Shown here: positions 22,347 to 64,000 of the stretch, piece by piece
How the letters are laid out: the number at the start of each line of letters is the position of its first letter
Numbering within the stretch: the stretch's first letter is position 1
Source of the DNA: Halopseudomonas litoralis
GTDB taxonomy: Bacteria; Pseudomonadota; Gammaproteobacteria; Pseudomonadales; Pseudomonadaceae
Length of the DNA stretch: 64,000 nt
NCBI RefSeq assembly: GCF_900105005.1
Contig: NZ_LT629748.1
Span: 1,054,001 to 1,118,000 of the forward strand
Direction: 5' to 3'
Position numbers and translations under genes: made by a program
The notes under the pieces: generated by a model
What the model was told of the DNA's origin: nothing
Databases searched by the model: none
The model's input: only the letters and a program-made list of their open reading frames with translations

Positions 22347-22400
22347 TTTGGCTTGTCTGGAGCGCGATCAGTTGCGTCTGCTGCAATTACTCTGAGGGGG

Positions 22401-22459
22401 GATTCTATGGTTCATGCCAACCTTTATAAGGTTTTGGGCCGATAAGCTCCTTGGTTCTG
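22401..22459 (-). mobile_element. Relic of the 3' end of an IS110-family element
   Basis: Read on the minus strand, this 59-base stretch aligns closely with the end of the transposase gene and right end of the intact element at 62340-62402. The shared pieces include codons for YRPKT, the stop region, TTGGCATGAACCATA and AGAATC. The relic keeps only about ten codons. It ends abruptly at 22459 beside a palindromic repeat unit. A few small deletions set it apart, so it comes from a related but not identical copy. Confidence 0.7.
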
Positions 22460-46042: not shown

Positions 46043-46383
46043 CAGAAGCGTCCAAGCCCGCCACCTGCACGGCGTGAAAAACGGGGCGGGGAGCATCCCA
46101 CATGCATTCCCACGCAGGAGCATGAGAACGATCGGGGGGGCGTGGTGGGGTGGCGCTCTGAGTGCAGGTGGGCGCGGAGCTTCCCCCAACCGATGGTTCC
46201 CACGCTCCAGCGTGGTAACCGCGCCGTGGACGCTCCAGCGTCCGGACCTGCCGCCTGCACGGCGTGAAAACCGGGACGCAGAGCGTCCCACATGCATTCC
46301 CACGCAGGAGCATGGGAACGATCAGGTCTGAGGCCAGCCTCGATATTCGATGGCTTGCTCTGCGTGAGAACCGGTGCCTGGTT
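46043..46383. repeat. Cluster of three palindromic repeat units after acnA
   Basis: This 341-base gap holds no gene. Two direct copies of an 87-base unit lie at 46047-46133 and 46237-46323, exactly 190 bases apart and about 85 percent alike. Each ends in the minus-strand sequence GATCGTT(C)TCATG or GATCGTTCCCATG. A third unit, GATGGTTCCCACGCTCCAGCG and its GGACGC-TCCA-GCGTCC hairpin, lies between them at 46192-46243 in the opposite direction. All belong to the dispersed repeat of this genome. Between convergent acnA and the ABC exporter gene they may also protect mRNA ends. Confidence 0.8.
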
Positions 46384-55059: not shown

Positions 55060-55111
55060 GATTGTCCCACGCTCCCGCGTGGGACGGCCTGCCGGGACGC
55101 TCTGCGTCCCA
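55060..55111 (+). repeat. Palindromic repeat unit (between the Yip1-family gene and ttcA)
   Basis: GATTGTCCCACGCTCCCGCG and the following GTGGGAC form the first hairpin (CCCACGC-TCCC-GCGTGGG). GGGACGC-TCT-GCGTCCC forms the second. It lies six bases after the Yip1-family stop and may act as its terminator. Its first hairpin has the same core as the one next to the IS110-family element. Confidence 0.75.
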
Positions 55112-59209: not shown

Positions 59210-59880
59210 TGCGGCTGCTGCTGGCTGAAGACAATATTGCCCTGGCTGATACGCTCAGTGCCAGCCTGAAACAGGCCGGTTATGCGGTGGATTGGCGAGC
59301 TGATGGCCGCGATGTGCAGCTGCTCGGCGAACAGGAGCCTTATGATCTTTGTGTTCTCGATCTGGGACTGCCCGGGCGCGGCGGCCTTGAAGTCTTACAG
59401 GCCTGGCGCGAGCAGGGCAGCGCCATGCCGGTGCTGGTGCTCACCGCACGGGGTAGCTGGACCGAGCGCGTCGAAGGTCTGCGCGCCGGCGCTGATGATT
59501 ACCTGACCAAGCCTTTTCATCCTGAAGAGCTGCTGTTGCGTATCCAGGGGCTGTTACGCCGCAGTCATGGCCGTGAGCCGCAGAATCAGCTGCGCGCGGC
59601 GGGCCTGACCCTTCATGAAGACAGCCAGCAAGTGTCCGGCCCGGGGCTGGATGCGGCGCAGTTGTCGGCCAGTGAGTTTCGGCTGTTGCGCTGCTTCATG
59701 CTGCAGGCGGGGAAGCTGGTATCCAAGGCCAAGCTGGCAGAACACCTATATGACTATGAAGCCGAGCGCGACTCGAACGTGATCGAGGTGCAGATCAATC
59801 ATCTGCGGCGCAAGCTGGGCAAACAGGCGATCGAGACCCGGCGTGGTCAGGGCTACGTGCTGGTGGGCCTGGATTCGTGA
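59209..59880 (+). CDS. OmpR-family response regulator
   Basis: The 223-residue regulator has an N-terminal receiver domain with the acidic pocket LAEDN and phospho-acceptor Asp51 in [12 protein letters not shown]. The later TARGSW and [14 protein letters not shown] hold the conserved Thr and Lys. The C-terminal winged helix carries [31 protein letters not shown] and [16 protein letters not shown]. It belongs to the PhoP/QseB-like group and probably controls its own operon. Confidence 0.94.
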
Positions 59881-61184
59881 AGTCCATCGGTCGCCAGCTT
59901 GGCGGTGGCTTGCTGCTGGTGCTGCTGCTCACGGTGATGCTGGTCGGCCAGGGCAGTGTCTGGCTGTTCGATCGGGCGCTGCGGGATTATCTGAGTAACG
60001 ATCTGCAACGGGAGACCGACGCGTTGCTGGCGGCGCTGATGCCGGGTGCGGATGGGTTGTATCTCGACCTGCAGCGCGTCAGCCCCGATTACCAGCGACC
60101 CTTTTCCGGGCGCTATTTCGTGTTGCAGACCACGGAGCGCTGGCGTTCACGTTCGTTGTGGGATCAGCGCCTGCCACTGGATGCTGAAGGATTGGAAAAT
60201 ACTTTGATACCCGGTCCGGCGGGGCAACGATTGCTGGTGCATTCGGGGCGCTTCAGCAAGTTGGGTGAGTCGGTGAGCATCAGTGTGGCGATGGACTATC
60301 AGCCGCTGCTGCAGGCGTTTTCCCGCGCCAGATTGTGGCTCTGGAGTCTTGGTGGCCTGGCAGTGGTTGTCAGTCTGTTGATTCAGCAAGGGCTGTTGCG
60401 CCGTGCATTGCGACCGCTGCATCGCTCCCGCCGCGAGCTGTCGGAATGGCACGCCGGCCAGCGGCTGGTGCTCAGTGATGACGTGCCGCAGGAGCTTGTG
60501 CCTCTGGTTGGCCAGATCAATCACCTGGGCGCACAGGTCGAACAGACCATTCAGCGTTCGCGCAAAGGTGTTGGTGATCTTGGTCACGCATTGAAAACGC
60601 CGTTGGCGGTGACCGAGAGTCTGGTGCGTCAGGCTGATCTGGACGCTGAAGCGAAGCAGGCTATTACCGCGCAGCTGGAGGGTATCCGTCGGCAATTGGA
60701 GCGGGCATTGCAACGCTCGCGTCTGGCGCCGGAGAGTCAGGCGGGAAAACGGTTCAGTCCCCGGCAGGATCTGCCCTGGCTGATGGACTCGCTGCGGCAG
60801 ATACACGGTGAACGGGTACGTATAAGCGCCCCGGAGAATGCGGGCGCAGAGTGGCCCTTCGAGCGCGAAGACATGCTGGAATTGCTGGGTAATCTGCTTG
60901 ATAACGCCTGCAAGTGGGCGGACGGTCTGGTGCGGGTAGATTGGCAGTTGAGTGGTCAGCTGTTACAGCTGCAGGTAGAGGACGACGGCCGGGGGATTGA
61001 TGGCGCAGATAGAGACAGGGTGTTGCGCCGCGGTACCCGGCTGGATGAAAGCGTCAGCGGGCATGGGTTCGGTCTGGCGATCGTCGGCGATCTGGTCGAG
61101 GTATATGGTGGAGAGCTGGAGCTGCAGGACAGCGAACTGGGTGGACTGGCCGTGCGGGTGAGACTGCCTGTGTCGCGCAGATAA
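59877..61184 (+). CDS. PhoQ-like sensor histidine kinase
   Basis: The 435-residue kinase has two membrane helices (about 10-32 and 155-175) around a periplasmic sensor of about 120 residues. The dimerisation helix has phospho-acceptor His237 in [13 protein letters not shown], an H-box form found in PhoQ-type kinases. The ATPase domain shows [10 protein letters not shown] (N box), VEDDGRGID (G1) and GHGFGLAIV (G2). It overlaps the regulator by four bases. The signal is unknown; PhoQ-like proteins sense cations or peptides. The linked PepSY proteins may contribute. Confidence 0.92.
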
Positions 61185-61211
61185 CAACCACTCCCCACCC
61201 TAGATCGTTTG

Positions 61212-61221
61212 TATGGTTCAT
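61212..61221 (+). repeat. Left subterminal inverted repeat of the IS110-family element
   Basis: TATGGTTCAT is the exact reverse complement of ATGAACCATA at 62388-62397. It lies two bases inside the left junction and the right copy lies four bases inside the right one. Confidence 0.8.
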
Positions 61222-61400
61222 CTGCAGGTCCAAAATGGACCTGTCAGGGTGGAGGGGCTCAATCGTTTTCCGGCCTTTCGGCACGGACTGTGGGAGATTT
61301 CGCCCCACCCTCACCATAAACGCCAATAGAGAATCCATCGGCAGAGCCAAGCCGCTCAGACCGACGATACGTCGCAAGCCAGCGTCTGGTGAGCCCTGAC
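61222..61400 (+). ncRNA. Predicted bridge RNA of the IS110-family element
   Basis: The left noncoding region folds by eye into three parts. First is a 5' hairpin, CAGGTCC-AAAAT-GGACCTG (61225-61243). Second is a stem AGGGTGG (61246-61252) with CCACCCT (61305-61311), extended by GGC/GCC. It encloses an internal loop with ATCGTT (61262-61267) on the 5' side, an apical CCGGCC-TTTC-GGCaCGG hairpin, and GTGGGA (61290-61295) on the 3' side. Third is a stem CACCA (61312-61316) with TGGTG (61387-61391), plus ACGC/GCGT, around a loop carrying AGAATC (61330-61335). This is the order known for IS110 bridge RNAs: 5' stem, target loop, donor loop. ATCGTT equals the left target half and GTGGGA is complementary to TCCCAC on the right. 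AGAATC equals the element's right end. Exact RNA ends are unknown. Confidence 0.72.
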
Positions 61401-61434
61401 AAGTCAAAGACTACTTTAGCTTGGAGGACGCGCC

Positions 61435-62373
61435 ATGACAAAATCTGTTGAATCTATCCTGGTGGGTATCGATGTCAGCAAGGCGGAGCTGGTGATCGCT
61501 CGCAGTGACGCCCCTCAGATCGACACGATCAACAACTCCCCCAGCGCTATTAAGCGCTGGTTGAAGTCGTTGCCGCAGGGCTCAAGGATCGCGCTGGAAG
61601 CCACCGGAATTTATCATCGGCAACTGGCCACGCTGGCTCATGCAGCAGCACACCCGCTCTACTTACTGGATGGTTATCGGCTCAGCCGTTACCGCGATGG
61701 GGTAGGTACCCGGGCCAAGACCGACCCGTCTGATGCCAGACTGATCCTGCGTTATTTGAGCAACGAGCTTGAGGAGCTCAAGCCTTGGATCCCTGCCCAT
61801 GATGCGTTTTACCGCATCCAAAGCCTGATGCGCCGTCGAGCCTCGCTGGTTCATACCCGAGTAGCGTTGAGCCAGAGCTTGCAGGATGTACCTGAGTTGA
61901 AGCAGGCGAGCAAACAGCTGGATACCCATATCCGTCGCGTTGAGCTGCTGATTACCCAGCGCCTGAAGCAGGCCTTGGCAGACGTAGGCTGGGACGCAGA
62001 TGCAAAACGCTGCATGGACATCGAAGGCATTGGCGAGCTGAGCTCAATGGCACTCGCCAACACCTTCCACCGAGGTCGCTTCAAGAGCAGTGACGCCTTC
62101 ATCGCTTACCTGGGGATGGATGTCAAAGTCCGAGACTCTGGCAAGCAGGCAGGCCGACGAAAACTCACCAAGAAAGGCGACCCGGAATTACGCCGCCTGC
62201 TCTACAACGCGGCTATGGCTGCCCGTAAAACCGCTGCCTGGAAGGCGTTATACGAGACCTATCTATCACAGGGACTCAAGCCCATCCAGGCGCTGATCAA
62301 GCTGGCAAGAAAGTTGGCGCGCATTGCCTTTGCCTTGATGCAGAATCAAACGGTTTATCGGCCCAAAACCTGA
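61435..62373 (+). CDS. IS110-family transposase (DEDD recombinase)
   Basis: The 312-residue enzyme has the N-terminal RuvC-like DEDD domain with Asp13 (GIDVSK), Glu55 (LEATG), Asp97 and Asp100 (KTDPSDA). A coiled helical middle (about 120-185) leads to the C-terminal Tnp20 domain with MDIEGIGELSSMALAN, AFIAYLGMDVKVRDSGK and GDPELRRLLYNAA. Ser235 is the likely catalytic serine. All key residues are intact, so it may be active. It uses RNA-guided cut-and-paste through a circular form in characterised relatives. GGAGG lies before the ATG. Confidence 0.95.
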   Translation: MTKSVESILVGIDVSKAELVIARSDAPQIDTINNSPSAIKRWLKSLPQGSRIALEATGIYHRQLATLAHAAAHPLYLLDGYRLSRYRDGVGTRAKTDPSDARLILRYLSNELEELKPWIPAHDAFYRIQSLMRRRASLVHTRVALSQSLQDVPELKQASKQLDTHIRRVELLITQRLKQALADVGWDADAKRCMDIEGIGELSSMALANTFHRGRFKSSDAFIAYLGMDVKVRDSGKQAGRRKLTKKGDPELRRLLYNAAMAARKTAAWKALYETYLSQGLKPIQALIKLARKLARIAFALMQNQTVYRPKT

Positions 62374-62401
62374 TAAAAGGGGTTGGCATGAACCATAGAA
62401 T

Positions 62402-62459
62402 CTCCCACGCTCCCGCGTGGGAATGAATGCTGGGATGCTCTGCGTCCCAGTTCTGGCGT
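62402..62459 (+). repeat. Right part of the palindromic repeat split by the IS110-family element
   Basis: CCCACGC-TCCC-GCGTGGG (62404-62421) and GGGATGC-TCT-GCGTCCC form the two hairpins of the dispersed repeat. Its first seven bases, GATCGTT, lie on the other side of the element at 61203-61209. Confidence 0.8.
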
Positions 62460-62476
62460 TGTGCAGGTGGTTGGTC

Positions 62477-62529
62477 GGGACGCAGGAGCGTCCAGGGCTT
62501 GGCTCCCACGCTGGAGCGTGGGAGCCATC
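62477..62529 (-). repeat. Inverted copy of the palindromic repeat unit
   Basis: GGGACGC-AGGA-GCGTCC and CCCACGC-TGGA-GCGTGGG lie in the opposite direction to the previous unit, forming a head-to-head pair. It lies between the IS and the transporter gene's end. Confidence 0.75.
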
Positions 62530-62556
62530 AGCTGAGGCGATCAGTTGGGAGCTAGC

Positions 62557-63879
62557 TCAGAGCACCATCGCCGCCAGCCAGCCGAAGGCGATCAGCGGCA
62601 GGTTGTAGTGCAGGAAGGTGGGCACCACGGTATCCCAGATATGGCTGTGCTGGCCATCGGCATTCAGGCCGGCAGTGGGTCCGAGTGTGGAGTCGGAAGC
62701 CGGCGAGCCGGCGTCGCCCAGTGCGGCAGCGGTGCCGACCAGAGAGATAATCGCCAGCGGGCTGAAGCCGAGCTGCATGGCCAGAGGCACGTAGATGGCG
62801 GCGATGATCGGAATGGTCGAGAAGGACGAGCCGATACCCAGCGTGATCAGCAGTCCCACTATCAGCATCAGCAAGGCGGCCAGCGCCTTGTTGTCACCGA
62901 TGGCGGTGGCGGAACTGGTGACCATGGTCTCGATGTGGCCGGTGGCTTGCATTACCGAGGCGAAGCCGTTGGCGGCGATCATGATGAAGCCGATCATGGC
63001 CATCATCTTCATGCCTTCGGTAAACAGATTGTCGGCCTCGCGCCAGCGCACTACACCCGACACGGAGAACACGATGAAGCCAGCCAGCGCGCCCATGATC
63101 ATCGAGTCCAGCCACAGCTGGATGGAGAAGGCAGCGATCACGGCGATCAGGGCTACCAGCAGCGTCTTGGGTGTGTAGCCGACCTTCTCAGCTGACTCAC
63201 CGGTATTGCCCACCGCAGCGGCGGCGTACTCACGGCGCTTGCGGTAGCTGAAGAAGGCTACCCCCAGGCCGAACAGCATACCCAGCGCCGGCAGCGCCAT
63301 GGCATGCATGACGTTGAGGCCGGTGATATCCAGACCACCATCCTGAACGTTGGCCAGCAGGATGTCGTTGAGGAAGATGCCACCGAAACCCACCGGCAGA
63401 AACATGTAGGGCGTGATCAGACCGAAGGTGAGGACGCAGGCGACCAGGCGGCGGTCCAACCTCAGCTTGCCCATGACGAACAGCAGCGGCGGCACCAGCA
63501 ACGGAATGAAGGCAATATGGATCGGCAGGATGTTCTGCGAGGCCATGGCTACTGCCAGCAGCATGACCAGCAGGATGAGGCGCAGTTTGCCGGTACCACC
63601 CTCGCGCTGGCTATTGATCATATTCAGCGCCCGGTCAGCCAGCGCCTGGGCGGTGCCTGACTTGGCGATGGCCACCGCGAAAGCGCCGAGCAGGGCGTAG
63701 CTCAATGCAACGTTGGCACCTTTACCCAGGCCTTTCTGAAAGGTCTCAAGGGTCGCGTCCAGGCTCAGACCACCGAGCAGACCGCCGGTGACTGCGCCGA
63801 TGATCAGCGCGACGACTACGTGCACTCGGCACAGACTCAGAATCAGCATTACTGCAACTGCAACGACCACTGCGTTCAT
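62557..63879 (-). CDS. Na+/H+ antiporter-family (YuiF-like) transporter
   Basis: The 440-residue polytopic protein has about twelve helices. It shows [23 protein letters not shown] at the start, a [26 protein letters not shown] segment and the C-terminal [44 protein letters not shown]. This matches the Na_H_antiporter (NhaC/YuiF-like) group. Members are sodium/proton antiporters or amino-acid (histidine) transporters, so the substrate is open. Confidence 0.85.
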
Positions 63880-63951
63880 GGTTACATCCTGTGTGAAAAA
63901 ATGACTTGCAAAGGGGCAGGGCGCGTACTCTGCCGGATGGCCGGGATGCTG

Positions 63952-64000
63952 TCAAAAGATACGGATGAAATCGTCGGGGCGGGGGTTCTCATCAAGCGTC
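63952..64000 (-). CDS. Possible C-terminal end of an upstream gene (partial)
   Basis: The last 49 bases on the minus strand hold an open frame that ends TLDENPRPDDFIRIF followed by TGA at 63952-63954. It ends 72 bases upstream of the transporter start and runs off the window. The residue pattern looks like a real protein tail, but no family can be named from 15 residues. Confidence 0.35.
   Translation of the reverse strand, partial: TLDENPRPDDFIRIF

Follow-up and report, generated by a model that had tools for sequence, protein, structure and literature searches.

The element and its copies in the host genome

In the window, the whole 64,000-nucleotide stretch of DNA analyzed here, an IS110-group insertion sequence spans positions 61210-62403, with boundaries taken from a comparison of its copies in the host genome. 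A sensor histidine kinase gene (59877-61184) ends 25 bases ahead of it; the 25 NCBIfam models listed for this gene all fall below cut-off, and the best among the matches listed is PhoQ. The element has the layout of the IS110 group rather than that of IS1111, with 225 bases ahead of the ATG, 30 past the stop codon and no long inverted repeats, and only a short inverted match (AACCATA/TATGGTT) surrounds the donor. The gene, the element ends and the flanking target halves are the following.

61204-61209, + strand: left half of the target (LT, ATCG) and target core (TT); these letters also begin 16 exact unoccupied sites of the genome
61210-61217, + strand: left end of the element and right donor TGTATGGT, containing the -10-like hexamer TATGGT; boundary from nine copies
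61435-62373, + strand: intact IS110 recombinase gene, 312 aa, with DEDD_Tnp_IS110 and Transposase_20 domains (domain, NCBIfam and PDB searches)
62383-62388, + strand: -35-like hexamer TTGGCA in the right end, 17 bases from TATGGT once the ends are joined
62395-62403, + strand: right end of the element, left donor ATAGAAT and donor core CT (copy comparison and sequence)
62404-62425, + strand: right half of the target (RT, CCCAC, 62404-62408) and the remainder of the REP palindrome (sequence)

The initial annotation of this DNA had read the site in the same way, as ATCGTT, element and CCCAC, and its coordinates and letters agree with those given here. Across the single 3.99 Mb contig of the host genome, the left end of the element is found in nine places and the right end in eight. 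All nine copies share the same left end and the same guides, and eight of those share the same right end, which the ninth (L009) has lost. By protein, four copies are identical, one is slightly different, one stands at 95.5% identity, one is split over two frames, one is interrupted past residue 281 and one is shortened. At the left junction the sequence is ATCGTT/TGTATGG, and at the right junction it is AATCT/CCCACGC. Seven of the nine copies have ATCG as the left half of the target (ATGG in L004, ACCG in L006), and the core preceding the left end is TT in eight and CT in one (L007). A reading of the latter copy as a trace of mixed-core repair was dropped, since its REP could already have carried CT before insertion. 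The right junction AATCT/CCCAC recurs in all eight copies that retain it, followed by a complete palindrome arm in seven and a broken one in L006, and all eight are inserted in one REP-type palindrome. Neither target duplication nor variation in the insertion point was found over the nine left and eight right junctions, with one T assignable to either element or target. Elsewhere in the window, a 63-bp stretch on the minus strand (22397-22459) matches the 3' end of the element at 85% and is a solo right-end relic beside a decayed REP.

The recombinase matches both IS110 domains, the RuvC-like DEDD domain and Transposase_20 (E about 4e-18), as well as the NCBIfam model NF033542, "IS110 family RNA-guided transposase", with 174.1 bits against a cut-off of 140. 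Only two PDB sequences match to E 0.01, namely ISCro4 (E 2e-20) and IS621 (E 5e-18). Residues D13, E55, D97, D100 and S235 are invariant in all 16 aligned proteins, and S235 aligns with the serine in the YESG stretch of the IS621 chain; from a two-residue offset, it probably corresponds to S241 of IS621.

REP sites in the host genome

The host genome contains 16 exact unoccupied ATCGTTCCCACG sites and none that reads ATCGCTCCCACG. Twelve of the 16 continue into the complete palindrome arm GCGTGGGA and two into GCGTGGTA, with one changed base, while the remaining two have a broken arm (L079) and a different arm (L090). When up to one mismatch is allowed, 52 genome sites match ATCGYTCCCACG vs. 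28 for the reversed control pattern. Eleven of the exact unoccupied sites (L077-L087) lie within 17 kb (G000 contig 1, 2021534-2038608), and four of these are spaced 212 bp apart in a tandem array. The window itself has other REP-like palindromes at 46108-46317, 55065-55084 and 62504-62523; with up to three mismatches, seven palindrome matches occur in it, including the element's own at 62403, against 0.67 expected.

Bridge RNA fold

The sequence between the left end and the recombinase gene can be folded into the following structures.

61225-61243, + strand: 5' hairpin of the bridge RNA, CAGGTCC/GGACCTG (61225-61231/61237-61243) (fold and sequence)
61242-61249, + strand: closing helix, 5' strand (alignment covariation)
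61251-61309, + strand: target-binding loop, with basal stem 61251-61258/61302-61309 and upper hairpin 61270-61286 (fold, covariation and RNA model)
61310-61393, + strand: donor-binding stem-loop, with outer stem 61310-61316/61387-61393 and inner stem 61320-61323/61382-61385 (fold, covariation and RNA model)
61394-61401, + strand: closing helix, 3' strand (alignment covariation)

Fold, covariation and RNA model agree on two guide-bearing internal loops, the target loop first and the donor loop second, and the structured RNA extends to about 61404. The 5' hairpin is the one that the initial annotation had drawn; its two stem-loops are also present, with limits now refined to those listed and with a closing helix added around them. 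The stability of the 61211-61400 fold is modest evidence alone (z of -2.48 against dinucleotide shuffles, 2 of 200 of which were equally stable). An Rfam search of 60000-64000 returned no match up to E 1, so the covariance search proposed in the initial annotation was made with a model built from 41 relatives, the window excluded. The sole match of this model in the 64 kb is 61238-61404 (125 bits, E 1.3e-24), and its nine matches in the whole genome are the nine element copies. Distant IS110 elements of the genus, at about 25-31% identity (L020-L026, L034), do not match it.

Covariation within the stems was assessed on 42 aligned left ends (alignment A3), with the qualification that the choice of helices derived in large part from the consensus fold of this alignment itself. 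In four named helices, 94.9% of cells pair, and 12 of 20 pairs are changed on both sides vs. 4.9 in shuffles (0/500 as high); further pair types number 18 vs. 15.3 (23/500 as high). Pairing falls to 25-42% once the strands are shifted by 1-3 columns. For the closing helix (alignment columns 44-52 with 234-242), 91.8% of cells pair over the 42 sequences and six of nine pairs are changed on both sides vs. 3.3 in shuffles (0/500 as high), while its pair types are not above shuffles (9 vs. 8.7, 281/500 as high). It is also partly present in the window's own fold. These alignments point to a covarying closing helix that encloses both stem-loops. The 5' region is as long as that of the window in 16 of the 42 sequences, partial in four and absent from 22.

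Target guides and insertion sites

Within the two loops, the segments assigned as guides are as follows.

61262-61267, + strand: left target guide ATCGTT, equal to LT plus core in six of the nine own copies, with one mismatch in the other three
61290-61299, + strand: right target guide GTGGG, core-pairing AG and handshake ATT, complementary to CCCAC (RT), the donor core CT and donor AAT
61326-61335, + strand: left donor guide ATA-GA-GAATC against donor ATAGAATC (sequence; assigned by analogy with IS621)
61367-61378, + strand: right donor guide AT...CAAG, discontiguous like that of IS621 (sequence; IS621 pattern as given in the text of PMC11208158)
61379, + strand: donor-loop handshake position, equivalent to P166 of IS621, with C facing target position 7 (G) (covariation)

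The first loop thus carries ATCGTT and, at 61290-61296, GTGGGAG, as the initial annotation had it. To compare guides with sites, we assembled 116 insertions: that of the window, which alone represents the nine own copies, and 115 from relatives about 46-75% identical in protein. The relatives came from 398 genomes drawn evenly across the family, with up to five candidates scored in each; a later search round kept 80 of 196 loci, and plasmid searches returned only relatives below 60% identity. Left out of the set were G377:C24, two loci of G383, G303:C1:5566960 and the truncated L019 and L068-L071. One batch of named rows comprised 54 new rows, 19 duplicates and nine without a recognizable end motif, which were dropped (L150, L153, L156, L157, L158, L162, L163, L166, L204); among these, L163 has ATAGGATCT and several others lie at contig ends. 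Removal of four of 120 rows for short or ambiguous flanks (L174, L186, L187, L213) left the 116. The search patterns required T9 of the left junction, AATCT at the right end and AG-A past the right guide, and the left-end start in relatives was itself a search motif and is shared by construction; no constraint was placed on the donor-loop handshake base, on C8 of the target core or on the remaining guide letters. A strand-bias comparison over all insertions was not retained, as the end motifs select for one outcome in advance. Left guides were located from alignment A3, which was made blind to insertion sites. Anchoring by short motifs had left 50 of 116 rows without placement, or eight in a second version that misplaced others (L120, L126, L144, L139, L064, L188, L190), and A3 was used instead. 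The right-guide anchor of two pairs (L109/L110 family) was corrected for the right-guide and family-level counts.

Over the 52 distinct guide-site pairs among the 116 insertions, the left target guide matches LT at 5.69 of the 7 positions lying outside the core, vs. 3.68 in shuffled pairs (sd 0.18, maximum 4.33 in 5000), the shuffles ignoring relatedness of the elements and, like the test, allowing both registers for the left guide. Collapsed to 36 guide families, agreement is 5.75 vs. 3.60 (maximum 4.36 in 20,000 shuffles, relatedness again not kept). The window's own left guide agrees at five of seven positions, ATCG and one distal base, and fits only one base off the aligned anchor, with two U linker bases rather than one. 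Agreement is poor in L182 and L188 (2 of 7) and in L072, L110, L119, L120, L202 and L211 (4 of 7); L182 would agree in full in the register one base the opposite way, outside those allowed in the test. This covariation of the loops with insertion sites in 36 guide families is not predicted by a purely regulatory role, in which the upstream structure would be a regulatory 5' UTR or antisense RNA site for recombinase translation and the loop-site matches would be incidental. Such a role has a precedent in ISPpu9: the text of PMC8450116 describes a structured 5' UTR there, together with two RNAs of about 180 nt, as affecting transposase expression. The structure here lies just upstream of a GGAGG stretch resembling a ribosome site (61423-61427). 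As a replacement for guidance we consider it very unlikely, although a regulatory side role may exist alongside the guide role.

The right target guide follows RT in the same manner: a CCCAC guide meets a CCCAC site in 32 of the 52 pairs and a CCTAC guide a CCTAC site in 17, with two cases of a CCCAC guide on a CCTAC site, tolerable as G.U, and one of CAACG on CGACG, with one G.U. That the recombinase itself recognizes REP palindromes, with the guide likeness arising from a conserved element in a conserved repeat, fits the older attribution of REP targeting to the transposase (as worded in PMC1525189) and the REP-like appearance, by eye and uncounted, of many relatives' sites, yet it is exceedingly improbable given that sites vary in step with guides: CCTAC vs. 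CCCAC (Fisher test on the two-by-two part of the counts, p 1.2e-11 for pairs and 6e-9 for families); L149, which has an unusual right half (CGACG) in its site and whose left guide (6 of 7), donor-loop handshake base and right guide, altered to match with one G.U, all track that site; and L048, with 75% protein identity, in which left guide and left target both differ.

That both target guides covary with their insertion sites is well supported by these comparisons of sequence. The initial annotation had proposed an RNA-guided inserter aimed at a genomic palindromic repeat, and it had named the places where this could fail. Elements with the same guides occupy the same kind of site rather than unrelated ones, the drawn stems covary, loop guides agree with insertion sites in aligned relatives far above shuffled pairs, and the eight copies are in one REP-type palindrome; the proposal is thereby supported in its main point.

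Donor guides, handshake and core

The letters of the donor guides fit the element's own ends, a fit that is to be read with the donor being nearly invariant in the clade and partly a search motif. The four bases flanking the donor on each side tend to be inverted copies of one another (3.0 of 4 over 19 distinct pairs from 42 elements; shuffles 2.43, sd 0.16, maximum 3.0 in 5000), a pattern that resembles the short inverted repeats known in the IS110 group. In 46 of the 52 guide-site pairs, the donor-loop handshake base is Watson-Crick complementary to target position 7 (C-G 43, T-A 2, G-C 1), the six misses being C-C in four, C-T in one and C-A in one; shuffles average 39.8 (0/5000 as high), and at family level the count is 31 of 37 (p 0.015). 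In the clade assembled here, this supports handshake pairing, more weakly than the target guides are supported.

The initial annotation had further remarked that the 3' guide pairs across the actual right junction. This pairing is real, as GTGGGAGATT is the reverse complement of AATCTCCCAC, which spans that junction. In IS621, a handshake guide pairs with the donor strand following top-strand exchange, according to the text of PMC11208158. By that anatomy, the pairing comprises the right target guide (GTGGG), the core-pairing AG and the A (then TT) of the handshake guide, and it presents no anomaly. The core of the window element is mixed, TT in the target and CT in the donor, and the CT in both cores typical of IS621 was not found in it. 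Among the 52 distinct pairs, the remaining 51 all have CT as target core, and they cover the 115 insertions counted from relatives. The left guide of the window reads UU and the right guide AG, which meets the first core base of the target as G.U. In IS621, a joint change of the core to GT, AT or TT in target, donor and RNA generally lowers efficiency, according to the text of PMC11208160.

Relation to known systems

There are published precedents both for bridge RNAs in IS110 elements and for Pseudomonas IS110 elements that target REP (PMC1525189), the latter known since 2006, and the principle is known from E. coli. As described in the texts of PMC11208160 (Durrant 2024) and PMC11208158 (Hiraizumi 2024), IS621 of E. 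coli shares with the window element the recombinase domains and serine, a bridge RNA in a left end that is longer than the right, a target loop before the donor loop, a left guide to the bottom strand and a right guide to the top, and an 11-base target in REP elements. Also shared are donor positions 6-14, ATCTTGTAT (the IS621 letters being pieced together from named residues), the discontiguous right donor guide and the handshake positions. The sequence match to IS621 is E 5e-18, REP sequence and guides differ, and the left donor guide of the window is ATA, two bases and GAATC. The points that set it apart from IS621 as described are its TT target core against a CT donor core, where IS621 has CT in both, and a closing helix around both loops, which those texts do not mention for IS621. 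Our literature searches, which covered text only and were not worded for these features, returned no description of a closing helix or of a natural mixed-core element.

ISPpu9, ISPpu10 and ISPa11 likewise encode pseudomonad IS110 transposases and have all their copies in REP (7/7, 7/7 and 6/6, as reported in PMC1525189). ISPpu9 and ISPpu10 are likened to the window element here by description rather than by sequence; the bridge RNA of ISPpu10 is drawn in an extended-data figure of PMC11208160, a drawing that might already carry the closing helix. ISPa11 differs in being treated as an IS1111-type element with its RNA downstream, in the text of PMC11187229. The seekRNA of ISEc21 and IS1111 elements, described there, embodies the same principle under another name, with other elements and other targets, and natural re-direction through exchanged guide segments is reported for it.

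Proposed mechanism and implications

The stretch 61210-62403 is very probably an insertion sequence of the IS110 group whose movement relies on recombination guided by a bridge RNA. Its membership of the IS110 group and an IS621-like mode of working are well supported, with the CT core of the target as the single departure among the features tested; the circle, transcript, binding and recombination set out below are proposed from homology and anatomy. The element would circularize with its ends joined as ATAGAAT-CT-TGTATGG, which would set TTGGCA 17 bases ahead of TATGGT. The two hexamers, with 9 of 12 consensus letters, could act across this predicted junction as a promoter that drives an RNA of about 180 nt out of the left end. 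This is consistent with the texts of PMC11208158 and PMC11208160, in which the IS621 RNA is expressed from the circle junction. The recombinase would bind this RNA. At the REP site ATCG-TT-CCCAC, the first loop would pair with both strands, the bottom one through ATCGTT and the top one through GTGGGAG; in the second loop, ATA..GAATC and AT..CAAG would pair with the donor ends. With ATCGTTCCCAC as target and ATAGAATCTTGTATGG as donor, the top strands would be cut past the core and then exchanged.

A more specific reading is offered tentatively, with more doubt than confidence: the clade may represent a bridge-RNA variant with a helix clamping both loops and with the 5' stem-loop region missing in 22 of 42 sequences, in which the window element has moved to a TT target core and a forward-biased reaction. 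With TT encoded in the left guide and CT in the right, pairing with the target loop would be better for the top-strand product (10 bases, AATCTCCCAC) than for the initial site, and this better pairing would bias the reaction forward.

A natural mixed-core element and a closed RNA would help the engineering of bridge recombinases, in which site choice is restricted by the CT core. Within one genome, nine copies and 16 unoccupied sites offer a ready target map. The concerted change of guides, sites and one handshake base in the clade assembled here provides an independent natural test of the bridge-RNA model.
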